Shown here piece by piece: positions 30,391-60,269 of a DNA stretch of 64,000 nt. The translations under genes and the position numbers were made by a program. The stretch is from Bacillota bacterium (GTDB lineage Bacteria; Bacillota; Dehalobacteriia; UBA4068; UBA4997): NCBI GenBank assembly GCA_017397935.1, contig JAFQHN010000021.1, positions 1 through 64,000 of the forward strand, in the 5' to 3' direction. The notes under the pieces were generated by a model, which worked only from the letters and a program-made list of their open reading frames with translations, had not been told where the DNA came from and ran no database searches. The first letter of the stretch is position 1. The number at the start of each line of letters is the position of its first letter.

Positions 30391-30439
30391 AATAAATTCT
30401 CCCCAAACAAATACCGTTCATCACAAATATAAATAATAT

Positions 30440-31033
30440 GTGACAGGCCGCCAAGTTAACTCTATGGCTTAGGTCTGGCAGTTTTTCACATTGGCCGCAC
30501 CACAGCGTCACCGCCGTGGTGGTTCCCACTTACGGGCCAATCCGGGGCGTCACCGCTTCCGGAGCCAAATCACCACTTAGTCCATACTTTAATCCCTGAC
30601 GACACAACAGCCTAGGAGCTTTCCTCAACAACATAACCATATTTTTAGCCTCTTTTGCACCAGTGGTTTCATCAGGAGGGCTGCCGGTCTGGTCTAACCT
30701 GAACAGTCTCTGTTTCGGTAATTGCTTACCCACTCCACCACTCGCACTCAAGGCAGGCTACACTGCACCCAGCATTTAACCGAATGCAGGTTTAATCCCA
30801 AGCCATAGTTATCATACCCGACCAAAGGTATCTCCCCACGAACTTGGGTCTCCACGGTAGTTGGGTCGTCCTCCGTATGCCATTACAGAGCGCCCAAAAA
30901 CCTTAACTCCCACTACCAGCCCCCGACTGGGCGTCAGAAGCCAGCACCAGAAACTTCATCGATGTGCCCTTAACGGATTTTTAGCCCCGCCTTCAAAATA
31001 TGGCCTGTCGACTAGGATACTGCGTCACATATC
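30440..31033 (-). ncRNA. ole: OLE RNA (ornate large extremophilic RNA)
   Basis: A 720-base gap between yraN and oapA with no believable reading frame but dense base-pairing. Near the 3' end, ATTGGCC/GGCCAAT (30541-30535 with 30496-30490) encloses CCACCAC/GTGGTG. A long-range helix pairs AACTATGGCTT-GGG (30809-30797) with CC-TAAGCCATAG (30473-30460) across about 330 nt. The length of about 590 nt, placement directly upstream of an OapA-like gene and dxs, and a block continuing with tlyA, nadK, argR, recN, spoIVB and spo0A match published OLE loci. In Bacillus halodurans OLE forms a membrane ribonucleoprotein needed under cold, alcohol and other stresses. Ends are estimates: the 5' end from the promoter, the 3' end from the last helix. 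Confidence 0.85.
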
Positions 31034-31039
31034 ATTTTT

Positions 31040-31068
31040 ATTATATCACCTTTTCGGCAAAATATCAA
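31040..31068 (-). promoter_or_regulatory. Promoter of OLE RNA
   Basis: TTGATA, a 17-bp spacer and an extended TGaTATAAT, inside the yraN-OLE gap. It would start transcription near 31033, just before the structured region, so OLE (and oapA onward) need not depend on read-through from yraN. Confidence 0.75.
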
Positions 31069-31112
31069 CAGTTTCCCATGTCATCTTTTACTGGTGGGGA
31101 TACCAGGCCAAA

Positions 31113-36268: not shown

Positions 36269-39200
36269 TTACCACACTTTTTCCGATACTCCCATATCCA
36301 CGTAAAGCTGCTGTTTGCCTCGCTGACCAATATCTTTGGCCATACGGTCAATCAGCTGCTTCTTTTTCAGGCTGGCACTCTTGCCTTCGCCCTTTTGTTC
36401 CTTGGCAGAGCCGGGCTGGATACTGTTGCCTTTTTTATCCTTATCACCCTTAACATCCCTTGCCGCCTTATAAATTGCTGCATAGTCTGCCAGCTCCATA
36501 CCGTACTCATCACGGAAGCTTCTTGCCGCCTCAGTCACCTTTTCGCTCAGCGGGTTCATACCGTCCTCAATATAGGCCTGCGCCTCGGCGGTACCCCAGC
36601 GGCCCAATGCCAGACCCTTGGCCACATTCGTCAGGGTATCCACATTCATAAGATTATCCGTATCAATACTAAAACGATACCGTCCGCTGTCAGAGAACGA
36701 GCCTTTCTCCACATCAAACTTAAAGCCGTCCTTTACGCCCAGCGTTACCTTCGGCGCCCAGCCCATATCTTGCAGAGTGCCCAGAGTTTTGCCAAGCTGT
36801 CCGCCGTATCCGGGCATCAGCAAAGATGTTGCCAACTCAAAACCGCTGTCGGATACATCCTCGCCGGTTAAAATATCAAAAGTAAAGGCGCCCAGTTTTT
36901 GCCCCAACAGGCTGCCGGTGCCAAACCTGGTCGGGTCCGCCTCGCCAAACAGCTTTTGGCGGTCGCTCTCCTCGGTAAATATGGCCGCAGCCACCTCGGC
37001 GCCCATCGGCATAGCAGACAATGTTTCACCCATCAGGCGCAAACCCAGCTGCTGCGCTCTACCGGCCAGCGTGATTTCCTCCTCGTCATCCGCACCGCTT
37101 ACGGCGTCCATCACCACATCCACCACGGCGCCCAAGAAGTCAGAACCCACACCGCTGCCGCGCAGATATTCCGCCAGCGAGTTCATCACAAACATCAGCA
37201 GCATCATCCGCGCCCAGGCACCGGCCTTTTGCCTGCCGGATAATTCTTTGCCCACCAGCATTTCCTTCATCAGCTGCCATTGGTTGTTAACCTCCAACTG
37301 GAAGGGTGCCACTATCTTCATCAGCTCGGCCTGCTGGTTCAGCGGCACTTCGCCAACTCCCCGGCCGCCCACACAGCGCCTGGTTATCTCATCCGCATAG
37401 GCCACAGGGTCAAGTTGCATCTGTTCGTCACCCAGCAGCACTCTCTGCTTTTGCCGCACCGCCGCAAACCAAATCAGCCTGCTCACCATCTCATCACCAA
37501 AGGTCAGCAGCCATTCGGCAAATCTGCCGGGTACTGCCATCACACCGGTATTAAAGCGGCTGATTTTCCTGTCCATAAACCGCTCGGTCAAAAAACCGCT
37601 CATATCCTGCAATTCCCGGGCGCTGCCCTGCTTAAACAGATATTCGGCCAAATCCTTAAAAGCCCCAGCCCAGGCTTTGGGGCTGCCAATATAAAACATA
37701 GCATTGGGCAGATTAAACCATTGGGCCACAAAGCTGCCCAGATTACCCAAAATCATATTCTTTCGCGCCTGAGAATGGGCAATTTTGGCAATCCGCACCA
37801 CCTTACGGTTGGCCTGGTCGGTCAAAATACGGTCCACGGGGTGGCTTTTGCCGGCCAGATTATTCAGATATTCGGTGTACCATTTCAAAAATCTGTTGGC
37901 ATTTCGGGTGTCCTCGGTCGCCTCGGCCACGCCTTTTACAATCTTTCGCCCACCGGCAATGTACGGGTCAATATAAATCTTGTTGCAAGCCGCAGGTATA
38001 TATCTCAGCAAACCGCCCACCGCATCCTCACGGTATCTTGCCCCTTTCCGCTGCTCCATAGCACCCCAAAAGCGGCTGTATGGCTTGGTATCGGCGCTGA
38101 TGGCCGCCAGCTTGCTGTCAATCTCGGCCGGTTCAATGATCGCCTGCCACAGATTATGCACCGCGCCCTCCTCATTGTAGTGGTGGAAGTAATTCGCCCG
38201 CTTGGTCAGCCGATGCCGCCGTAGCGCATCACCGCTTTCGTACAGGTGATGCAGGTGCATCGCCATACTCTCATACCTGTCGGCCGCTGTCAGGCTGTTC
38301 TCCAACTGCCGCTGCATATTCTCGGTGGTCTTTTTCAGCATACGGATAACTGCCGCCGTCCGTTTGGCCTTTTCCTGCAAGCCCCGCACCTCATATCGGG
38401 CATATTCCTGCTCGGCTCGCTCCAATCGCTCACGGTTGGTGGCAATATCTTCCGAAAGCCGTCTGGCTCTCAGTTTGCACCGGTCACGGCTGGCCAGCTT
38501 ATCCGCCACCTGCCGCTCCACTTCTTCTGCCGAGTGCGGATAGATCCGCTGTAATGTTTCATTGGTGCTGTCAAAAAGCTCATCATACACGCCGCGTATG
38601 TATTCGCTGGCCTCCACGATCTTCTGCCACTTATCGGGGAACTCTCTTTGCAGGTCAGCCAGAGTATACGGCACCGTCTCGTTGCCCTTATACGGCCTTT
38701 TACCGTCAGCCAGCCACTTTTTATACTCGCGTTTCAGCTTGGCCACCTTGGCTTTGGCGTATGTGCTGTCCAGCTTTACCTCGGCAAGCTGCTTCATATC
38801 CTCGTCAAAGTCCTGCTGTGTATACGGCAGCTTCCCGTCCTTATTGGTAGCCAGCCTGCGCCCCTCACCATATTTTTGCACCGCGGCGCTTTCATCGCTC
38901 CCGGCCTTAATTCCCAGCTCGCCCATCTTAACATAAAGGTCGTCCAACAGCTGCTGCTCGTGCATGGCCCGCTGCCGTTTCAGTTCCAGCAGCGGCCGCT
39001 CAATCAGCGCACCCATGGTTTTCCTAAGCTCAGCATTATCTCCGGCCAGCTTGTCCAGCGCTCGCCCCAGGTCCTTGTTATACAGCGTCATACCCATTGT
39101 CGGGCTGGTCATTTCCCTGGCCCAGAGGAACTCCCTGGCATCTACATCGGCGTTTTTGCTTTCCTCCTCGTTCAAAAACTCCTTCACATCGGGTATGTCT

Positions 39201-42200
39201 TTGGGTTTGGCGTCTGCCTCGTTCCGGTTTTTCTCGGCCAGCTTTTGCAGGCGCAGCTTCACATACTCGGCCGCCTCCCGTTTCAGCTCACTCAGCAGGT
39301 AGCCGTGGCTGTCCGTTCCGTGGCGCTCGTCCATCTCCGTCCAGCTCTCAAAGCTCGGCTCCAATCTATCCCGCACCGCCAGCAGCTGCCGCAACTTGGC
39401 CGTCTGGTTATCCTGATCCGGGAAGCTTGCCGCCCCATACTCCGCTTGCAGCTCATCATACACCTCGTCAATAGAAAGCGGCTGCTGCTTTTGCGTGGTA
39501 TGCAGGTTAAGCCGTCTGCGCTTTTTAATAGCGTCAAAATCACCCACATTGGCCCGCACATCTGCCGGCACATAGATTTTATACCCCAGCATTTGCTCTT
39601 TAAGCCCGGGGTTTTCTTCGGCATAGCTGTTATCCTCCTTGCCGCCCATCTCATAAAGCACGCAGGATAACTCATAACATTCCTTGCCCGATACCACATT
39701 CCCCACCGTCATTCGCTTGGCAAAGTCCCGGATTAAGTTTCTGGCCTCGCCGCGCCTTCCTTTGGGCACACCGTACATCCGCAAAACCGCATTTTCAAAC
39801 TCGTTGCGGTCATACCCTGCCCAGTTCTCACGGTATACCTCATTCTTCACCGCCTCGGCCGATATTTTCTCCTTTACTTTCTCCGCCGCCTCGGCCGCCA
39901 GCATTTCGGCCTCCTCACGGGCGGCTGCCCGCTGCTGCTTCGCCAACTCATCAAAAGAACTGCCCAGCGATTTTTGGCCGTTTTGGTCCGTGCTTTTTTG
40001 GCCATTATTGTTTACATTTTTATTCTGGCTATTGCTTTCTTGCCCGGAATCGGCTATACTATTAGTGGAGACTGATGCAGTGCTTCTGGCAGCTCCCGGT
40101 GACGGGTTCGTGCTTATTGCTGCATTAGTCTCTTTTTCTGTAAAAGATGTCGGCAGCAGGTTTAACACATCGTACAACACCATAGTACCATTTTTACGAG
40201 TTCCCACCACGACATCTGCCGAATAGTCCTGGCTGCCCACTCGCAACAATACATTGCCACGTGCAAAATCCACAATTCTGTCTTTGCGTGGATGATTCAA
40301 ACCTTCATTTACCCAATCTGCCGCAGCAAGCAATATCTCATCGGCATTATTCGTTGCACGCAGCTTATCTGCTTGCAGTTGTGGGTCATTGTTATACAGC
40401 CATTGCATATACTTGGAATAAGTCATCTCCTGCCTACTCTGACCATCAATTACGATTTCGTTATTACCCACAATTATGCCATCAGGGAATTTTTGTTTAA
40501 GATTTTTCTTTACAACTGATACCCATTCCTCCTGCGGTATCCCGGCAAGTATATCATCTTCTACCTCTACAAAACTTTGGTTTCTGCTTGTTCTGCCAAT
40601 CCTGTACTGCACCCCGCTTCTGTCCGTGCTGCCGGTACTGTGTGCCGCCTTTATGTATAGCTTTTCCATACGGCGCAGTTCGGCCTCGGCCGCAGTTCCC
40701 CGCAAGCGCACCAGCATATCCTGCACCCACTCATATATCCGCTCAAAAAGGCTCCGCTCGGTATTCGCCAGCCGCTCAATCGCCGCCTCATCGCCAAATA
40801 GCTTCTGCTCACAGAACTTTGCCACCAGCTCACGCCGGGCACCCTCCTCATCCAGCTTCACACCGCCGGCCGCATATTCTGCTGCCAAATCACGCTGCAT
40901 CGTCTTGGCGTCCAGCTTCAATACGCCGCTTATGTATCTTTCCGCATAATCGGCCAGCGCAGCATAATACCCGCTACTCTCAATGTGATGTGTCAGTTCG
41001 TGCACCAGCAATCTCATCAACGGCTGCTCACTGTTCACATTCAGCCTTACCACGCCGTCAGCATATTCACCGTCGGCCACACCTTCCATCGGTGCCAACT
41101 TTACCCCCAGCGAGGCCGCAACTTTCTCGGCTTTGCTCCATTCCTCGGCTCTGGCCGCAGGTACTGCCACAGTTTCATTCTCACTCTGCCCGATAAATTC
41201 CTCTGCTCCACCGTTGCTTTTTACCACGGCATTTGCTATACTGTTATTAACAGGAGCATTTGTATGCTGCGTTTCCGGACGTAACGCAGGGGCTTGGCCA
41301 CTGACGGGCTGCAAGCTCCTGTTTTTGTATGCCGAAACAACATATGCAGTCTTAGCCTTTGTATCAGGCACAGCCTCTACAACATAGTAATGTCCGTCTA
41401 TTTTTTTGGTAAACGTTACCGTTTTGGCAGTTTTGCTACGGCCGTTTTCATTTGTTGTATACGCCTCACTTCGCCCGGAATATTCCACATTGTCATAATT
41501 ATCTAAAACATATTGAACACGCGCAATATCAGCACTATCTGCCATACTTTGGTCTGCCTGCCCGTTTGCCCCATGCCTGTTTACGATGTGCTGTACGGCC
41601 CGCGGTTCTATCGCAGTTTTGAATCCATATGTGTTCACACCAGTCAGACGCCATATATCTTCCGCCGCCCTATTCGACATACCCTTCAACTCGAAACGTT
41701 TAGGAATATCCGCAGCCTTGCTGATGACCTTTTGCACAAAACCAAGCAGTTTACTATCTACTGCCGCTTGGTACTCCGTCATCACCTGTAACTCCGCTGG
41801 TGTGTGTTTATCCTCCTGCCCTACCAACGGCGCATTTGCCCCCGTCTCGGCTTGGTTTTCTGCCGCCGTGGGTGTTTGTTCCTCTTTCGTCTCTGCCACG
41901 CTTGCAGGGGTGTTTTTTTGTGCCTGCATATCGGCATTCACGTTCATCACAGCCGCAGGCGCACCCATAGCACCGCCCACCACGGCACCCAGCACGCCGG
42001 AGTACGCCATCTCTTTCAGCGTAGCCGCCAGCCATTCGTTCATATTCAGCTCCGGGTTTTGCTCCTTCTCCCAAATCGCCAGGTCCGCCAGATTCTGGGC
42101 GTATGTTGTCAGCATTTCCGTGCTACCCTCAATCCCTGCCTGCTTGGCCACCGCCGCCAGGTACACCGCCGCATTACCGCTGATTACTCCCTTGGCGCCC

Positions 42201-43297
42201 TTGCCATAAAGCTTATACAGGTTATCCAGCGGCAGCTTTTCAAAAGCCGCCTCCACCGTGCCCTGCACCAAACCGGAAAGCAGGGCTTGTTGGTCGCTTG
42301 CACCCTGCTGCTTAGCCTTCTGCACTCCCTGCCCTGCGGCCGCAGCACCCATCGTCAGCAAAGGGTTTACCGCACCGCCCGTGGCTCCTGCCACCGCCAG
42401 CGCCGCCAAATTGCCTGTCACCGTCTGCGCCGCATCATATGCCAGCCGTCCAATGCCGTTTAAGCCCTCTTTGCCCTTCACATCGGCCGCCGCCACATTA
42501 CGCATAACCTCCTCAGCCTTACCCTCGCCCAAGGGGTTAAGTGCCTTTGCCACTCCTGCCTCCATGCCGGCAATACCACCGCCCACAGCACCCTGCACCC
42601 GGCTCATTCGCTTATAACTCTCGGGTAGATACCCCCTAAGCGTTTTCAGCTCCCTCTCTGCGCTTGCTCTTTCCTCGGCCGTACCGGCGTTTAAGTATTT
42701 CTGTATCAGCTCACTTTCCCGTGCATAAAGCTGCATACTCTGCCGCTGTTCGGGTGTTACCGCCGCATCCACCGTCTGCTTAATTCGGGCATTGTACCCC
42801 TCATTGATAAGCTCACTTTCGTTCTGCAAAATCCGCTCACGCCGATTATCCCCGTATTCCTGCAATTTGCCGCTTACCGTTTGCGCCCCTTTGGCCACCG
42901 CCAGCAGCGCCGCCTGTGCGTTTTCCTGCCGCAGCTTCTGCATTTGGCTGTTTATTTTGTCCTCGGCAGTCTCCTGCGGAAGATAGTTTTGCCCCAGCTC
43001 GCTTGCCTTTCTTCTTTCCAGCCATTTGGCGAACAATCCCCTTTCCTCCTGGGTGTTTGTCCGTGTGTTTATTTGGTGGGTTTGGGGCGAATTTGCCCCT
43101 CCCTCGCCCATTTTAATCACGTTTACGGGTGTTTGTGCCTTTTGGGGCTCTGCGCCCTTGGTAGAGAGCGAATTTGCCGCCGCCCGGATTTTACCCCGCT
43201 CTTCCCCGGCTTTCAAAGCCTTCATCAGCTCGGCATTTCTCTTTTGCCCTCTCTTTTCACCTGCTTTCAGCAGTTCTGCGTTTATGTTAATTGTCAT
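36269..43297 (-). CDS. Giant phage polyvalent protein (nuclease, protease and LPD-type domains)
   Basis: A 2,342-residue protein that I read as a polyvalent protein, likely packaged and injected with the genome. Domains by eye: charged coiled N-terminus (1-230); Gly/Ala-rich hydrophobic stretches (230-460); a PBECR-type (Barnase/EndoU/Colicin/RelE-fold) nuclease-like region (about 510-660), with IVNRHG, GRSEAY, KKIDGHYYVVE and VVSAYK; a zincin-like site VHELTHHIE (about 764); and an LPD3-like beta domain (about 950-1080), with GSQDYSADVVVGTRKNG and LYDVLNLLP. Next is a low-complexity Asn/Gln linker, long coiled coils (1300-1750), and an LPD38-like C-terminus with amphipathic helices. GGGGAGG precedes the ATG. 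Last gene of the late operon, where short-tailed phages keep ejection proteins. Confidence 0.75.
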   Translation of the reverse strand: MTININAELLKAGEKRGQKRNAELMKALKAGEERGKIRAAANSLSTKGAEPQKAQTPVNVIKMGEGGANSPQTHQINTRTNTQEERGLFAKWLERRKASELGQNYLPQETAEDKINSQMQKLRQENAQAALLAVAKGAQTVSGKLQEYGDNRRERILQNESELINEGYNARIKQTVDAAVTPEQRQSMQLYARESELIQKYLNAGTAEERASAERELKTLRGYLPESYKRMSRVQGAVGGGIAGMEAGVAKALNPLGEGKAEEVMRNVAAADVKGKEGLNGIGRLAYDAAQTVTGNLAALAVAGATGGAVNPLLTMGAAAAGQGVQKAKQQGASDQQALLSGLVQGTVEAAFEKLPLDNLYKLYGKGAKGVISGNAAVYLAAVAKQAGIEGSTEMLTTYAQNLADLAIWEKEQNPELNMNEWLAATLKEMAYSGVLGAVVGGAMGAPAAVMNVNADMQAQKNTPASVAETKEEQTPTAAENQAETGANAPLVGQEDKHTPAELQVMTEYQAAVDSKLLGFVQKVISKAADIPKRFELKGMSNRAAEDIWRLTGVNTYGFKTAIEPRAVQHIVNRHGANGQADQSMADSADIARVQYVLDNYDNVEYSGRSEAYTTNENGRSKTAKTVTFTKKIDGHYYVVEAVPDTKAKTAYVVSAYKNRSLQPVSGQAPALRPETQHTNAPVNNSIANAVVKSNGGAEEFIGQSENETVAVPAARAEEWSKAEKVAASLGVKLAPMEGVADGEYADGVVRLNVNSEQPLMRLLVHELTHHIESSGYYAALADYAERYISGVLKLDAKTMQRDLAAEYAAGGVKLDEEGARRELVAKFCEQKLFGDEAAIERLANTERSLFERIYEWVQDMLVRLRGTAAEAELRRMEKLYIKAAHSTGSTDRSGVQYRIGRTSRNQSFVEVEDDILAGIPQEEWVSVVKKNLKQKFPDGIIVGNNEIVIDGQSRQEMTYSKYMQWLYNNDPQLQADKLRATNNADEILLAAADWVNEGLNHPRKDRIVDFARGNVLLRVGSQDYSADVVVGTRKNGTMVLYDVLNLLPTSFTEKETNAAISTNPSPGAARSTASVSTNSIADSGQESNSQNKNVNNNGQKSTDQNGQKSLGSSFDELAKQQRAAAREEAEMLAAEAAEKVKEKISAEAVKNEVYRENWAGYDRNEFENAVLRMYGVPKGRRGEARNLIRDFAKRMTVGNVVSGKECYELSCVLYEMGGKEDNSYAEENPGLKEQMLGYKIYVPADVRANVGDFDAIKKRRRLNLHTTQKQQPLSIDEVYDELQAEYGAASFPDQDNQTAKLRQLLAVRDRLEPSFESWTEMDERHGTDSHGYLLSELKREAAEYVKLRLQKLAEKNRNEADAKPKDIPDVKEFLNEEESKNADVDAREFLWAREMTSPTMGMTLYNKDLGRALDKLAGDNAELRKTMGALIERPLLELKRQRAMHEQQLLDDLYVKMGELGIKAGSDESAAVQKYGEGRRLATNKDGKLPYTQQDFDEDMKQLAEVKLDSTYAKAKVAKLKREYKKWLADGKRPYKGNETVPYTLADLQREFPDKWQKIVEASEYIRGVYDELFDSTNETLQRIYPHSAEEVERQVADKLASRDRCKLRARRLSEDIATNRERLERAEQEYARYEVRGLQEKAKRTAAVIRMLKKTTENMQRQLENSLTAADRYESMAMHLHHLYESGDALRRHRLTKRANYFHHYNEEGAVHNLWQAIIEPAEIDSKLAAISADTKPYSRFWGAMEQRKGARYREDAVGGLLRYIPAACNKIYIDPYIAGGRKIVKGVAEATEDTRNANRFLKWYTEYLNNLAGKSHPVDRILTDQANRKVVRIAKIAHSQARKNMILGNLGSFVAQWFNLPNAMFYIGSPKAWAGAFKDLAEYLFKQGSARELQDMSGFLTERFMDRKISRFNTGVMAVPGRFAEWLLTFGDEMVSRLIWFAAVRQKQRVLLGDEQMQLDPVAYADEITRRCVGGRGVGEVPLNQQAELMKIVAPFQLEVNNQWQLMKEMLVGKELSGRQKAGAWARMMLLMFVMNSLAEYLRGSGVGSDFLGAVVDVVMDAVSGADDEEEITLAGRAQQLGLRLMGETLSAMPMGAEVAAAIFTEESDRQKLFGEADPTRFGTGSLLGQKLGAFTFDILTGEDVSDSGFELATSLLMPGYGGQLGKTLGTLQDMGWAPKVTLGVKDGFKFDVEKGSFSDSGRYRFSIDTDNLMNVDTLTNVAKGLALGRWGTAEAQAYIEDGMNPLSEKVTEAARSFRDEYGMELADYAAIYKAARDVKGDKDKKGNSIQPGSAKEQKGEGKSASLKKKQLIDRMAKDIGQRGKQQLYVDMGVSEKVW

Positions 43298-44323: not shown

Positions 44324-44468
44324 CGTTTTCGGCCTCCTCCGTCTGCTCATCTTCCAGCTTCACCACAATCCTGTCATACTGCTCACAACGGGGGTTGCGG
44401 CAGATAAGCGCTGCCGCCCCCTCTTTTTCTTCACAGCGCAGCTCAATCTTACACCTCGGGCACAGCAT
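44313..44468 (-). CDS. 51-residue zinc-ribbon protein
   Basis: A very small gene between portal and the coiled-coil gene. It encodes MLCPRCKIELRCEEKEG, then an ICRNPRCEQYDR knuckle and an acidic tail. Two C-P/N-x-C pairs (residues 3/6 and 23/28) make a zinc ribbon. The portal stop TAA and its ATG overlap as ATGTAATG, with GGAGGTGGG just upstream; its own stop overlaps the next start. Such tight packing argues that it is translated. Role unknown, perhaps binding nucleic acid or another virion protein. Confidence 0.75.
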   Translation of the reverse strand: MLCPRCKIELRCEEKEGAAALICRNPRCEQYDRIVVKLEDEQTEEAENDGD

Positions 44469-46117
44469 TACATCCCACCTCCGTTTACCGTCGGCATTTC
44501 GGCCGCCGCTTTTGCCTTTTCACGCACTCTTTCCAGCAGTTTGGCCTTGTTCTTCAAATATCCGTCCGGCAGGCATTCCAGATAAGTCTCGGCGTCAGGC
44601 ATAATACCTGCGTTCAGCAGATTATCCAGCATTTGCACCTGCACCAGCTCGCTCCACCTTGCCGCCGCGCCAATATCCACCGTCATATGCCAGCGGCAGC
44701 GGCCGATTTCCGCATAATTAAACTTGGTTGCAATCTCTGCTGTCTGCCCGTCTGCCGTTTGGTTCGGGAGCGTAACCGTGCGCCAGCCGTAATCCACACT
44801 CATCATATCCAGCCAAATCCGCACATTGGCCTCCACAAAGCGGTAAAAATCCTGCCGCTGCAAGTCCAGCGGTGTTGCCGCCGCCTGCTGCACCGCCAAT
44901 ATGGCTGATGTATTATCCGGCTTTGCATTACCCAGCGCCGCATCATAAATGCCCATACTGCTCTTGGTACGCTCCTCGATGTCACCAATCAGCTGCAATA
45001 CCTGTGCGCTCATATCCTTCGGCCGAAAATCACTTACCACATCGCGCACATCGCCGCTTACCCCAATCGCCATACCGGGGTCGGGATTCCAGCCCTCCGT
45101 CAGACGGTTGCGGTCATAAATCACCTTGGGGAAGCTGTAATTCTGTCGGTCAAGGCTGGCCAGCGCATACATCTTGTTTAAGATAATCTGGTTGTTAATT
45201 TTGCCCGTCACCGGCGATACCCCGTGGTAGTTATTAAGCTCCGCCTCCCAGCTGGCATAGGCCACCGGGTACAGCTTGTACCCCAGGTCGGTTTCTTTTC
45301 GGATAACCGCCCTCTCGGTCACCTGCATATAATGCACACTCAGCTCCCCGCTGATTATCTCGCCAAAGGCCTCCATTTCCTTTTCGGCAAATTCGGGATC
45401 ATACTTGGTTCTCTGCTTAAAATATTTGGTCAGTACCGTCACATACTGCTTGTTGATGTCCTCATCCTCGCCCACCTCGTTGTCGGGCATAATCTCCTCG
45501 GGGTCACAGCCGTTATTTTTGGCCAGCTCTCTGGCCTCACTCAGCAGCAGCCGCTGCCGAATAATAATATACGGCTGTCTTTCCACCTCATTGGTGGCAG
45601 GGTTGCCAAAGAAAATATCCGTATTCTTGATGATTTCGGTGCGTATCGCTCCCATCGCCCCGTTATCTGCCACATCCACCGTCGGGTCAAAATAGCTGTG
45701 CAGCGCCATATCCCCATCCAGCGCCATTCTCTTTAACAGCAATCGGTGCTTATATCCTGCCTCGGTGGTTTCCAGCACCTCGGCCACCGCCTGCTGCATA
45801 ATCCGCCCCAGATACTCACCCGGCTGCAAAACACCTTCGTCTGCGCCCACCGGTGGCAGATTACCCAAATTCTTATCCACCTCAATGCTCACGCCAATAT
45901 CGTCCGATACCAACTGCGACACATAATAATTCACCGCCGGCTTGATGATATTAAAACAGGGTTTGTCCAAATCCGGGGCGTCCACTCCCAGCCATTGGCG
46001 GTCATTGTAAAAATCGCTGTTTATTTTAACCGTTTCCTCCAATCCCAGCCGGCTGTTAAACCCCAACGCATCCTGGTACTCGCGCCAAATACCCTCACAG
46101 CTTTTCACGATCTCCAT
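44468..46117 (-). CDS. Portal protein
   Basis: Dodecameric channel through which phage DNA enters and leaves the head. 549 residues with the P22/podovirus-like portal pattern: FYNDRQWLGVD, KPCFNIIKPAVNYYVSQL near the N-terminus, then DGDMALHSYFDP. FGNPATNEVERQPYIIIRQR and a helical C-terminal part (PLDLQRQDFYRFVEANVRIW) follow. AAAGGAG precedes the ATG. In most phages it follows terL directly; here a large hub-like gene is between them. Confidence 0.88.
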   Translation of the reverse strand: MEIVKSCEGIWREYQDALGFNSRLGLEETVKINSDFYNDRQWLGVDAPDLDKPCFNIIKPAVNYYVSQLVSDDIGVSIEVDKNLGNLPPVGADEGVLQPGEYLGRIMQQAVAEVLETTEAGYKHRLLLKRMALDGDMALHSYFDPTVDVADNGAMGAIRTEIIKNTDIFFGNPATNEVERQPYIIIRQRLLLSEARELAKNNGCDPEEIMPDNEVGEDEDINKQYVTVLTKYFKQRTKYDPEFAEKEMEAFGEIISGELSVHYMQVTERAVIRKETDLGYKLYPVAYASWEAELNNYHGVSPVTGKINNQIILNKMYALASLDRQNYSFPKVIYDRNRLTEGWNPDPGMAIGVSGDVRDVVSDFRPKDMSAQVLQLIGDIEERTKSSMGIYDAALGNAKPDNTSAILAVQQAAATPLDLQRQDFYRFVEANVRIWLDMMSVDYGWRTVTLPNQTADGQTAEIATKFNYAEIGRCRWHMTVDIGAAARWSELVQVQMLDNLLNAGIMPDAETYLECLPDGYLKNKAKLLERVREKAKAAAEMPTVNGGGM

Positions 46118-48585: not shown

Positions 48586-49920
48586 TTACCGCCCCAGCCG
48601 CATAAAGCTTCGTGCCCCTGCCGCAAATCTGCTCTCCTGCCTCGGCTTTTCCGCCCAGGGTCTGCCTGCCACCAAATACCTGAGAGCATCCGGGGCGTGG
48701 GTCAGCTCGTGCGGGTCCTTGGCGCAGTCGTTGGGGTTTCTCTCACTTCGCTGCAAAGCAGGCAGCGTCCTCAGCAGGTTCAAACAGTTACTGCCGATTT
48801 TCAGCTTTGCCGTTTTTGCCCCCTGCTCATCGTCATATACCCTCAGCCATTCGGCCAAATCATACCATCCCTGCACACGGTCATTGTTGGCTCTGGTCAG
48901 CCCCATACCCTTGGCCGCAAAGATGTCCGCCGTACTTCGGCCGGTGTCGCTGTGCTTGTTCCACAGGTCAGGCGGTGCAAAGAAGGCAGAAATCTTCTCC
49001 CCCTCATCAATACGGCTTTGCAGCAGCTCGGCCGCCTCACTCGCCAGCAGCTTGTCCTTATAGACTTCCTTGTATACCCAGATGTTTTCCCGCTCATCAA
49101 TCGCCGCAAAGTATGCCGCAAACATATCCTGTCCATAGTCAAAGGCCACATAGCGCCGCCAGCTTGCAGGTATAGCAAAGGGTTCAAAACAATGCACCTC
49201 ACGCCGGAACATCTCAAAATACTGCCCCTCAAAAATATCCCAGTTGCCCTCTCTCAGCGCCTTTCTTTCCTTCTCCGGCAGCAGATTAAGCCGCTTGGCA
49301 TAACCGGGGTCACCTTGCAGCAGAAAAGGATTGTCGTCCAGCTTAGACGGTATAAAAACTCTGGTACTCACTTCCCCGGTGTTCTCATCCCGCACCTTAT
49401 GCTCCACGCCTTCCGCCCCAATGTCGATAAACCGCGCCTTCACCCAATAATGCCCCACTCCGCCGGGGTTGGTGCTGCTCTTTATCTGTCTGGGGTAAGG
49501 CTTAGAACCTCTCAGTCGGCTCAGCAGATACACATACATATATTCAGAGAAATGCGTCAGCTCATCAAAGCGGATAACATCATATTCCGCACCCTGGTAG
49601 CGGTGTACATCCTTCTCATTATCGCAATAGCCAAACTCAATGATAGAGCCGTTGACAAAATACCAGCGGTGTTGGCTGCTGTTATATGCCGCCACCTCAC
49701 GGCTGAAAAGCCCCAGACTGGTGAGTATCAAAGAGCGCTCCAAGTCCGGGAAGGTGCGCCGCAAAGCCAACTGCTTGCTTTCCGGGTATTTCAGCGCATA
49801 CAGCCACGCATCCACCAACTGCCCATAGCTTTTACCGCCGCCGGCCGCTCCGCCAAACAGTACCTCATCGGCCTCGGCCTGTATAAAACTCTGCTGCCTT
49901 CTGGTTATCTGCAAATCCAC
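48586..49920 (-). CDS. terL: Terminase large subunit
   Basis: ATP-driven DNA-packaging motor and nuclease. 444 residues: Walker A EVLFGGAAGGGKSYG near the start (residues about 19-33), Walker B IRFDELTHF, the coupling motif SSTNPGG, then the RNase H-like nuclease opening VAFDYGQDMFA, and a late acidic patch HAPDALRYL. The GTG start at 49920 (V-D-L-Q-I) has AGGGGGAG at 7 nt. The frame further upstream passes through a terminator hairpin. It sits after the lysis genes, about 6.5 kb from terS, which is unusual. Confidence 0.93.
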   Translation of the reverse strand: MDLQITRRQQSFIQAEADEVLFGGAAGGGKSYGQLVDAWLYALKYPESKQLALRRTFPDLERSLILTSLGLFSREVAAYNSSQHRWYFVNGSIIEFGYCDNEKDVHRYQGAEYDVIRFDELTHFSEYMYVYLLSRLRGSKPYPRQIKSSTNPGGVGHYWVKARFIDIGAEGVEHKVRDENTGEVSTRVFIPSKLDDNPFLLQGDPGYAKRLNLLPEKERKALREGNWDIFEGQYFEMFRREVHCFEPFAIPASWRRYVAFDYGQDMFAAYFAAIDERENIWVYKEVYKDKLLASEAAELLQSRIDEGEKISAFFAPPDLWNKHSDTGRSTADIFAAKGMGLTRANNDRVQGWYDLAEWLRVYDDEQGAKTAKLKIGSNCLNLLRTLPALQRSERNPNDCAKDPHELTHAPDALRYLVAGRPWAEKPRQESRFAAGARSFMRLGR

Positions 49921-49935
49921 CTGTTCTCTCCCCCT

Positions 49936-49971
49936 GCAATAACAGCCCCGGGCAACCTTCACCCGGGGCTG
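49936..49971 (-). terminator. Hairpin between the lysis genes and terL
   Basis: A 9-bp GC stem, AGCCCCGGG/CCCGGGGCT, with a loop of about 9 nt, followed on the minus strand by GTTATT. It may partly terminate or stabilise the mRNA. Confidence 0.6.
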
Positions 49972-54090: not shown

Positions 54091-54930
54091 TTAGCCTCTG
54101 GCCGCAGTCAGACCGGCATAAACGCCCATTTCCTTGGCCTTGATAACAAAGGCGTCATAGTACCAACGACCCTGCAACAGCCAGCCGTCCACATCCTTAA
54201 CCTCGGTCAGAATTCTGGCCGTTTTCAGCTTCACAGGGCGCAGAAGCGAGCCCTTATAGGTCAGCAAAAATTCGACGTCAGCGGGCAAATAGCTGTCGGG
54301 CACCTTAACAATACGCATATTGCCCACATTGCCCACTTCGCCCTTCTTCACAGCCTTAACGCCCAGCGCCTCCAAATTCATAAACTCCGAAGACTGGCGG
54401 AGATAGTTATAGTTTCTAACCGGCAGGTAAACCACACGGTTGTCATCAGGCACCAGCGCATTGTCCAGCGCAGCACCCGCATCCAGCAGTTTGCCCACCA
54501 CATTGGTCTTGGTCAGCGCACCGGTTGCCGCCTTGGTACCGGCCGCATTCACCCAGGCGTTAAAGGTGTACTTGTCCATCATCGGTACCACCTTCTCCGC
54601 AATCTGCAAATTCATCATGCGGCCTGCTCTTTTCATCATCATCTGGTCGCTGTAATTGCCGCGGTCAATGCTGATGGAGAAGCTCTTTTCCTCGTTCATA
54701 GTCAAGGTCTGCAAGCTGTCCTCCATCTCGGTCATCTGGCCAAAGCGGTCGGCGGTTGCAGTACGGTCATAATCCACCAAATCCACCGTTTTGGGGGTCC
54801 AGATGTTCAGGCTGCGTACACCCTCAAAGCTGTAATCGTTACTGTAATTGCCGGCCACATAGCTCGCCTTGGTAAAGGCAGTTGCAATCTTGCCGGAGTA
54901 AGAAGTTGCCAGGTTAATAGAAGTTGCCAT
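54091..54930 (-). CDS. Major capsid (coat) protein
   Basis: 279-residue coat protein of the HK97-fold/P5 (P22-like) group. It follows the scaffold gene and shows INLATSYSGKIATAF, then the LNIWTPKTVDLVDYD loop. The TMNEEKSFSISIDRGNYSDQM strand, a helical spine (RMMNLQIAEKVVPMMDKYTFN) and PDDNRVVYLPVRNYNYL complete the pattern. TGAGGAG precedes the ATG. Strong identification from position and architecture, though not from a single motif. Confidence 0.85.
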   Translation of the reverse strand: MATSINLATSYSGKIATAFTKASYVAGNYSNDYSFEGVRSLNIWTPKTVDLVDYDRTATADRFGQMTEMEDSLQTLTMNEEKSFSISIDRGNYSDQMMMKRAGRMMNLQIAEKVVPMMDKYTFNAWVNAAGTKAATGALTKTNVVGKLLDAGAALDNALVPDDNRVVYLPVRNYNYLRQSSEFMNLEALGVKAVKKGEVGNVGNMRIVKVPDSYLPADVEFLLTYKGSLLRPVKLKTARILTEVKDVDGWLLQGRWYYDAFVIKAKEMGVYAGLTAARG

Positions 54931-59064: not shown

Positions 59065-59246
59065 TCCACTCCGCCCTCACATAAATCCTTATTGTCAAAT
59101 TCCCAAAGAGCCGGATACCTTGTGGTAGGGCATATAGAACCCTGCAACATACAGATATTGCCGTCAACATAACATCTATGTGTCTGGCAATACTCTTTTA
59201 CCTCCGCAAGTGTCCATTCGCCCAAAGGCTTATTGTTATCTGTCAT
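59061..59246 (-). CDS. Small cysteine-containing phage protein
   Basis: 61 residues with four cysteines (CQTHRCYVDGNICMLQGSIC), perhaps a small zinc or disulfide-stabilised fold. ATG 59246 uses a GGAGGTAATGAGTG site that is a copy of the end of the preceding gene. Unrecognised. Confidence 0.6.
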   Translation of the reverse strand: MTDNNKPLGEWTLAEVKEYCQTHRCYVDGNICMLQGSICPTTRYPALWEFDNKDLCEGGVE

Positions 59247-59284
59247 CACTCATTACCTCCAATGCCATCACTCATTACCTCCAA
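59244..59284. repeat. 22-bp tandem duplication
   Basis: The 19 bp at 59244-59262 recur exactly at 59266-59284. One copy forms the end of the hexapeptide-repeat gene and the other the ribosome site of the next gene. Confidence 0.85.
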
Positions 59285-59894
59285 ACCGTACCTTTGCCAA
59301 CTCAATAGCCGCCATATACTCTTTGGCGTGCTGGTTATCGCCGTGGGTTTCTTTTACTTTGGCTGCAAACTCGTCCAGATCGCCATAGAAGCACCCGCAG
59401 CGTACTCGACATTTACCATCTTCGCATTTGAAAAAAGTCGTGCAGGCATTTCGGCTGCCGATAGGCGCAATCCACAAAATGTCGGTGGTGTCACAGACCA
59501 TCGCCGAATCACAGACCTCCGCCGAACCAAAGACCATCGCCGAACCATAGACCATCGCCGAATCACAGACCATCGCCGAATCATAGACCATCGCCGAATC
59601 ACAGACCTCCGCCGAACCAAAGACCCTCGCCGAACCAAAGACCTCCGCCGAATCACAGACCCTCGCCGAACCAAAGACCCTCGCCGAATCACAGACCATC
59701 GCCGAATCACAGACCCACGCCGAACCCTCTTGGCTCAAATTTTCCTCTTTCTCAATCCAACCGCCCAGCGTACCTGCCTTAATCTCAAAGCCGCCAGCCA
59801 ATTTGAAGTCAATAACCGCTCTGATGCGGTGCAATGTTCTGCCCAACCATTCTTTGGTTTCGCCTGTAAATTCGTATTTCTTCATTCCGCTCAT
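59268..59894 (-). CDS. Hexapeptide-repeat (left-handed beta-helix) phage protein
   Basis: 208 residues in three parts. The N-terminal domain (MKKYEFTGETKEWLGRTLHR) is followed by 13 tandem six-residue units (residues 57-134) of the form D/G-S-A-M/R/E-V-C/Y/F. The C-terminal domain (DILWIAPIGSRNACTTFFKC, then VRCGCFYGDLDEFAAKVKE) completes it. Hexads with A/V at fixed places build a left-handed parallel beta-helix. The ends resemble phage proteins often found beside DUF3846-type genes. No catalytic site is visible. GGGAGG precedes the ATG. Part of the early operon. Confidence 0.8.
   Translation of the reverse strand: MSGMKKYEFTGETKEWLGRTLHRIRAVIDFKLAGGFEIKAGTLGGWIEKEENLSQEGSAWVCDSAMVCDSARVFGSARVCDSAEVFGSARVFGSAEVCDSAMVYDSAMVCDSAMVYGSAMVFGSAEVCDSAMVCDTTDILWIAPIGSRNACTTFFKCEDGKCRVRCGCFYGDLDEFAAKVKETHGDNQHAKEYMAAIELAKVRFGGNE
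59493..59726. repeat. 18-bp coding minisatellite, 13 units
   Basis: In-frame 18-bp units inside the hexapeptide-repeat gene. Units differ mainly at third positions and at the M/R/E and C/Y/F codons, so unit number can change by slippage without breaking the frame. Confidence 0.85.
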
Positions 59895-59906
59895 CGCCCT
59901 TCCTCC

Positions 59907-60269
59907 CTATTCCAACTCTTTCATACTGCTTATCAAATAGTCCACAGCTTCTTTAATGCTATTGATAGCCAAATCGGCGTTTTCAAATGTCGCATACTTT
60001 GCTATCCACATAGCTACTATCGTTTCTTCACCCGGAATAAGCATTGCCATCAAAACGGCAATCCCTGTAACCCAAAGCATCGGTTTTAAGAATTTCGTTG
60101 CCATTGCCATAATATCTTCGTCCTCGTTCATTAAGGCTGCGATTGTAATAGCCATCAAGACTGCTATAAAAACAATCCCGATTACTGCAAGTATTATTGC
60201 CGCTTCCTCCAAATCGCACACACAATCCATCAGGTAAAAAATCATCGGGCTTACAATGTATTCGTTCAT
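59907..60269 (-). CDS. Hypothetical phage membrane protein
   Basis: 120 residues with two or three hydrophobic helices (AAIILAVIGIVFIAVLMAIT and MLWVTGIAVLMAMLIPG) and an acidic, helical C-terminus (SIKEAVDYLISSMKELE). AGGAGGGG precedes the ATG, which overlaps the preceding stop. Unrecognised. Confidence 0.65.
   Translation of the reverse strand: MNEYIVSPMIFYLMDCVCDLEEAAIILAVIGIVFIAVLMAITIAALMNEDEDIMAMATKFLKPMLWVTGIAVLMAMLIPGEETIVAMWIAKYATFENADLAINSIKEAVDYLISSMKELE

Follow-up and report, generated by a model that had tools for sequence, protein, structure and literature searches.

OLE RNA, which is associated with the membrane, is to our knowledge one of the largest conserved RNAs of bacteria whose biochemical function is not known. 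In Halalkalibacterium the OLE ribonucleoprotein aids stress survival and magnesium handling. In the known systems OapA binds OLE RNA in a 2:1 ratio and brings it to the membrane. The OLE dimer structures that we know of come only from Clostridium RNAs. The solved dimers have a symmetric, self-complementary P9 kissing loop (L9.3, bridge B3) (Kretsch et al. 2025, PMC12286853), and the only switches reported for L9.3 are between the palindromes GGCC, GAUC and AGCU (PMC12286853). The gut lineages TANB77 and RF39 have a shortened OLE RNA, with OapB and OapC largely missing (PMC11332333).

The DNA analysed here is a stretch of 64,000 nucleotides of a Bacillota contig, which we call the window. A preliminary description, made from the letters of the sequence, had proposed that the yraN-oapA gap at 30391-31112 holds an OLE RNA next to an OapA-like gene. 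Scanning the whole window with Rfam produced a minus-strand match to OLE (RF01071), at 31044-30424 and with 446.1 bits (E=1e-127, against a score threshold of 50 bits). The match spans model positions 1-616 of 616 and is not truncated, and OLE was the only family above threshold in the scan. The RNA therefore does lie within the gap, but the RNA proper, judged by the positions of the promoter and of the P1 helix, is narrower, at about 31032-30436. That the gap has no usable frame also holds, as it contains no minus-strand ORF of at least 80 aa. A plus-strand ORF of 445 aa with a TTG start was rejected as a shadow of yraN and rnhB.

The genome (1.59 Mb, 99.4% complete) carries a single copy of OLE, and the same Rfam scan found none in 14 control genomes. 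Full-length OLE is present in 10/10 genomes of the window’s family, while its distribution across the order is patchy (19/35 genomes). In one other family of the order (f4, G014-G033) most genomes have no detected OLE, including several that are 91-98% complete, and a few genera keep a full-length copy, apparently a pattern of repeated loss. The named relatives are Peptococcaceae genomes from gut metagenomes, including Candidatus Avidehalobacter gallistercoris. We considered whether the window belongs to a lineage not known for OLE, Negativicutes being the published exception, and rejected this because the relatives are Peptococcaceae and Candidatus Avidehalobacter MAGs.

A sigma-A-type promoter, TTGATA-17-TATAAT with an upstream TG, lies at 31068-31040 on the minus strand and matches the consensus at 11/12 positions. 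Its -10 element occupies the same position in sequences of the window’s genus, and the start that the promoter predicts, at about 31033-31032, coincides with the opening base pair of P1. The terminator scan found no terminator-like site between OLE and oapA on this strand. It is therefore likely that OLE is co-transcribed with oapA and that its 3' end is made by processing, as has been reported for the OLE RNA of H. halodurans (PMC11332333, PMC12265935).

The gap had been described as rich in structure, with helices expected to covary among relatives, and the comparative data agree. The Rfam structure, taken from the window’s own Rfam alignment, is paired in 82.7% of cells across 42 OLE sequences, against 39-46% when every pairing partner is slid by 1-3 columns. 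It carries 831 double-sided changes, which fall in 106 of its 153 pairs. The OLE structure is far beyond chance. The closing helix P1, in which AUAUGUGAC (31032-31024) pairs with GUCACAUAU (30444-30436) on the minus strand, is paired in 95.5% of cells with 84 double-sided changes, the slid controls giving 28-54%. A second long-range stem joins P3.1 (31010-31005) and P3 (31003-30995) in its 5' arm to P3 (30645-30637) and P3.1 (30634-30629) in its 3' arm, and here 88.1% of cells are paired with 178 double-sided changes (slid controls 44-59%). Both P1 and P3/P3.1, names we assigned from the text of PMC12265935, are open in the Rfam structure line, yet they are as strongly supported by covariation. 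P3 and P3.1 together form 14 standard pairs of a possible 15 in the window, in agreement with the approximately 12 bp quoted for the OLE stem proposed to cross the membrane, P3/P3.1 (PMC12265935). The window’s OLE RNA keeps P1 and P3, including the proposed membrane-crossing stem, with strong covariation.

The segments that meet partners in the described systems are also kept. The A-rich loop CUAAAAAU (30984-30977, minus strand), the L4 dimer contact of the published structures (PMC12286853), is unchanged, as are the L5 and L6 contact sequences. The J4a/5 segment GCACAUCGAUGAAG (30967-30954), one strand of the OapC kink turn region (PMC9723947, PMC12286853), is nearly invariant. GNRA-type GGUGAC loops close both P12.2 (30554-30549) and P13 (30512-30507), helices named here by their order, in what PMC9723947 gives as the OapB-binding region. 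Across the window’s family, a small consensus hairpin of OLE (Rfam model 425-436), at 30607-30603 in the window, is down to a few bases.

The next gene, oapA (30390-29677, minus strand), has a TTG start and encodes 237 aa. It had been described as an OapA-like gene for a multi-helix protein, and its features place it in the OapA family. The product has one DxxxD motif, D141-VVG-D145 (coded at 29970-29956), the motif that tells OapA from CNNM domains, which lack it (PMC11332333), and both aspartates are invariant in an alignment of 29 sequences. Four membrane helices can be read from its hydropathy (segments within residues 45-192), and its pI is 9.4. The protein had no match in the PDB by sequence and only matches far below cut-off in NCBIfam. 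Pfam gave CNNM at 19.2 bits, below the cut-off of 28.4, and found no CBS or CorC domain. The AlphaFold2 model (mean pLDDT 79.8) has CNNM proteins (CorB/CorC) as its top five Foldseek matches in the PDB, with probability 1.00 and weak E-values of 0.003-0.12, in line with what has been published for OapA. In the DxxxD motif, the hydropathy, the basic character, the CNNM relationship and the position right after ole it resembles known OapA. It differs in a longer, low-confidence N-terminus in the window’s species, and is about 30-44% identical to the aligned OapA proteins from outside the genus.

The CNNM magnesium transporters MpfA, CorC and CorB share with this protein the fold of its top structural matches and the weak CNNM similarity, but the 237-aa protein is without CBS or CorC domains and stays below the CNNM cut-off. 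We rejected MpfA as its identity, since it has only the sub-threshold CNNM match and no further domain. A scan of the named genomes found 73 OapA homologues, 71 of them with OLE directly upstream; the other two start close to a contig end, at distances of 474 and 281 bases.

Further downstream on the minus strand come dxs (29627-27753) and a block of tlyA, nadK, argR, recN, spoIVB and spo0A (27784-20824), and yraN (UPF0102; 31478-31113) lies upstream. These are the neighbours given in the preliminary description. Pfam confirms rnhB, yraN, dxs, a tlyA-like gene, nadK, argR, spoIVB and spo0A; ylqF and recN were named from reading their translations and from their co-linear position in relatives. 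The common order is ole-oapA-dxs-tlyA-nadK-argR-recN, with dxs present at 62 of the 73 loci and tlyA at 54. The tie to isoprenoid, DNA-repair and sporulation genes to which the preliminary description pointed is thus present but is not new, having been published for hundreds of OLE species (PMC12265935).

Compared with the full-length type of OLE RNA (RF01071), the window has all the conserved blocks, the site before oapA and dxs, and the partner genes. It differs in its upstream genes, which are ylqF-rnhB-yraN in the window’s family and in one further sequence (L063), whereas in Desulforamulus xseA, folD, xseB and ispA, read from translations, are among the genes before ole. It also differs in being without the small hairpin at model 425-436, and in a non-palindromic P9 apical loop that the P7 loop matches. 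The large subunit of exonuclease VII (PF02601, xseA) was found in none of nine genomes of the window’s genus (G000, G001-G008); in the sister genus (G009) it is present elsewhere.

Candidates for the remaining partners of the ribonucleoprotein are encoded elsewhere in the genome. The OapB candidate is a KOW-type protein of 100 aa, encoded in a translation operon, with map and infA on either side (L039:1197-1499); OLE-associated protein B is the one PDB entry that it matches significantly (7k9b, E=1.4e-6, 82 aa aligned). Directly before rpsL (L011:1468-1713) is a gene for a YbxF-like protein of the L7Ae family, its best PDB match being YbxF itself (4lck, E=3.7e-12), which by homology is a candidate OapC. 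A bS21 candidate is also encoded. No MpfA-type CNNM protein rose above cut-off in 9/10 genomes of the family, the window’s own genome among them, which fits the published anticorrelation of OLE/OapA with MpfA. One member of the genus has both OapA and a full CNNM of MpfA type above cut-off (G001:C34:7517-8101), against that usual anticorrelation. The window shares with the carriers of OLE variants 1 and 2 (TANB77, RF39; PMC11332333) that they are gut bacteria with reduced genomes. Those variants shorten P7-P9 or lose P7/P8 and are mostly without OapB/OapC, whereas the window keeps all of these. Judged by homology, this small gut genome has a complete set of OLE partners, unlike TANB77 and RF39.

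Beside the ole block the window holds a prophage-like segment (35000-63000). Reading the translations by eye, we noted terminase-like (48586-49962), portal-like (44468-46117) and capsid-like (54091-54930) genes. In a 2342-aa protein (36269-43297, minus strand) residues 545-660 form a PBECR3 nuclease-like domain, and the protein has no PHROG match. An ORF at 59178-60089 on the plus strand consists largely of RRITDHRR-like repeat units and probably represents a tandem DNA repeat, not a gene.

The locus is a genuine, full-length ole-oapA locus. Three observations could have spoken against OLE and OapA here (no OLE covariance match, no covariation of the helices among relatives, or a membrane protein outside the OapA family); we looked for each and none was made, and nothing else contradicts the identity. 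The OLE-OapA pairing is the expected, standard and already known arrangement. The first reading of the locus is supported, but it missed that the P9 loop is non-palindromic and matches the P7 loop.

The P7 apical hairpin of the window (30831-30814, minus strand) is AUACC-UUUGGUCG-GGUAU, with the loop segment UGGUC at 30824-30820; a hairpin at this place, its stem varying, is seen in 24/24 OLE RNAs of the class. The P9 apical hairpin (30699-30686) has the loop segment GACCA at 30694-30690, which is complementary to the P7 loop and not to itself. Full self-pairing of its GACC (30694-30691) is impossible and the palindrome of L9.3 is absent, a palindrome that is a structural feature of the solved dimers and not a criterion for membership of the OLE family. 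All 24 OLE RNAs examined from the window’s GTDB class, which represent 15 genera, have complementary P7 and P9 loops, with standard pairs in 118 of 120 cells. UGGUC with GACCA or a one-base variant occurs in 21 of the 24. Two sequences have compensated states, UGGAC/GUCCA in L125 and UGGCC/GGCCA in L122, and a third, L136, combines UGGUC with GGCCA in an intermediate with one U-G pair. Because most class members share UGGUC/GACCA by descent, the covariation comes to two clear double changes and the one U-G intermediate. The stem of the P7 hairpin varies across the 24 RNAs, while its loop is kept.

Predicted duplex energies, which are free-duplex values and not kissing-loop energies, are -7.8 kcal/mol for the window’s P7 loop with its P9 loop and +1.1 kcal/mol for P9 with itself. 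L125 gives -8.9 kcal/mol for its own pair, and cross-pairings between the window and L125 give -4.6 and -5.0 kcal/mol. Shuffling within the class reached the observed number of Watson-Crick pairs 72 times in 20000, and 202 times in 20000 when each genus gave a single sequence; both controls ignore relatedness. GACCC, which is conserved at the base of P7, was also considered as the partner of GGUC in the P7 loop. This was ruled out, as L125 keeps GACCC with the loop GGAC, which matches GUCC in its P9.

The class seems to use the same P9 apical loop as bridge B3 of the published structures (PMC12286853), but there the loop pairs with itself and here it is GACC (or GUCC) with its complement in P7. 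The contact would therefore be heterotypic. As a physical pairing we infer L7-L9 from these loops, and it might form within one molecule or between two. We found no description of an L7-L9 contact in the main texts of the OLE papers covered, which include one of the two cryo-EM papers.

To compare the loops within and outside the class we matched the most deeply nested loop of P7 with mid-P9, using mismatched pairs as controls, in place of an automatic choice of the single best hairpin in P7 and P9, which took the wrong loops. The P9 apical loop was chosen partly by eye. A P9 palindrome (GGCC, AGCU, UGCA or GAUC in mid-P9) is kept in 137 of the 142 OLE RNAs outside the class. Matches of at least 5 nt between P7 and P9 occur in 13 of these 142 (9%) and in 8-10% of mismatched-species pairings, and being at the chance rate the 13 are not counted as contacts. 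Within the class such matches are found in 20/24, with three more of 4 nt; L124, where the P7 loop folded differently, was missed. Fisher’s exact test of the class against the rest gives 1.4e-13, a value that overstates independence because the sequences are related. Two groups outside the class also combine a non-palindromic P9 loop with a matching P7 loop: L186 with 7 complementary nucleotides, and family f20 (L187/L207/L246-L252) with 4-6 nt in 8/9 members. In L224-L230 and L253, P9 is shortened to a stub without an apical kissing loop.

The same loops could also belong to an ordinary OLE RNA in which the P7/P9 match is a founder effect, both loops being fixed for other reasons, such as protein contact or unrelated tertiary contacts, and P9 either kissing itself weakly or leaving the dimer to other bridges (L4, L5-L6). 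With the L4, L5 and L6 contact sequences unchanged in the window, the dimer need not depend on P9, and the single loop pair shared by most of the class is also in keeping with common descent. Descent does not so easily account for the two exact compensations in L125 and L122, or for a P7 stem that varies freely around a fixed loop. The predicted self-duplex of the window’s P9 is also unfavourable where that with the P7 loop is not, and the non-palindromic P9 loops outside the class match their own P7 loops too. We therefore think the founder effect unlikely, though it is the strongest of the alternatives.

It is very improbable that the conserved stretch is no trans-acting RNA but a riboswitch-like 5' UTR that regulates oapA in cis. 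Its place just before oapA, on the same strand and with no terminator found between the two, would suit a leader, but it matches over its full length a family of abundant trans-acting membrane RNAs (PMC12265935). The terminal P1 helix closes the structure, as is typical of a discrete RNA, and the regions that bind OapB and OapC are kept, with the partner genes elsewhere in the genome. Least credible of all is the reading that a small host-associated genome holds OLE only as a decaying remnant. In its favour, the genome has 1.6 Mb, 16/35 genomes of the order, several of them near-complete, gave no OLE, and one Rfam hairpin is missing. But the loss of that hairpin is common to the whole family and so is not recent decay, full-length OLE is in every genome of the family, the conserved positions are intact, and OapA, OapB, OapC and bS21 candidates are all present.

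We consider it very probable, taken as a whole, that this is an ole-oapA locus with its own promoter, encoding a membrane ribonucleoprotein in which the P9 dimer contact has been rebuilt as L7-L9. What the data show directly is the identity and structure of the RNA, its partner genes and the covariation of the loops. An OLE RNA of about 597 nt would be transcribed from its own sigma-A-type promoter, with transcription reading through into oapA, and processing at P1 would probably define the 3' end of OLE. The RNA would fold and dimerise through its 5' domain, and the CNNM-like OapA would hold it at the membrane. Together with OapB on P12.2/P13 and OapC on the kink turn, and joined by bS21, this would make up the OLE ribonucleoprotein. 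In the window’s class the P9 loop, which in most OLE RNAs is GGCC and kisses its own copy, would have become GACC, pairing with UGGUC at the tip of P7.

It is likely, with rather less confidence, that OLE RNAs of the class went from symmetric P9-P9 kissing to heterotypic P7-P9 pairing (UGGNC with GN'CCA), and that similar swaps arose separately in L186 and in the L187/L207/L246-L252 group. In that case a large RNA would repeatedly have switched the partner of a quaternary contact during evolution. If L7-L9 is intermolecular, each dimer would have two symmetric contacts; if it is intramolecular, the P9-P9 contact of the published dimer would be gone from the class.

The complete partner set in a small gut genome runs counter to the shedding of OapB and OapC in reduced genomes. 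The new element seems to be a lineage-specific change of one quaternary contact in an otherwise standard locus. A lineage without the palindromic dimer loop, but with a new matching loop, makes it possible to test directly if this contact is important and if it can be rewired.
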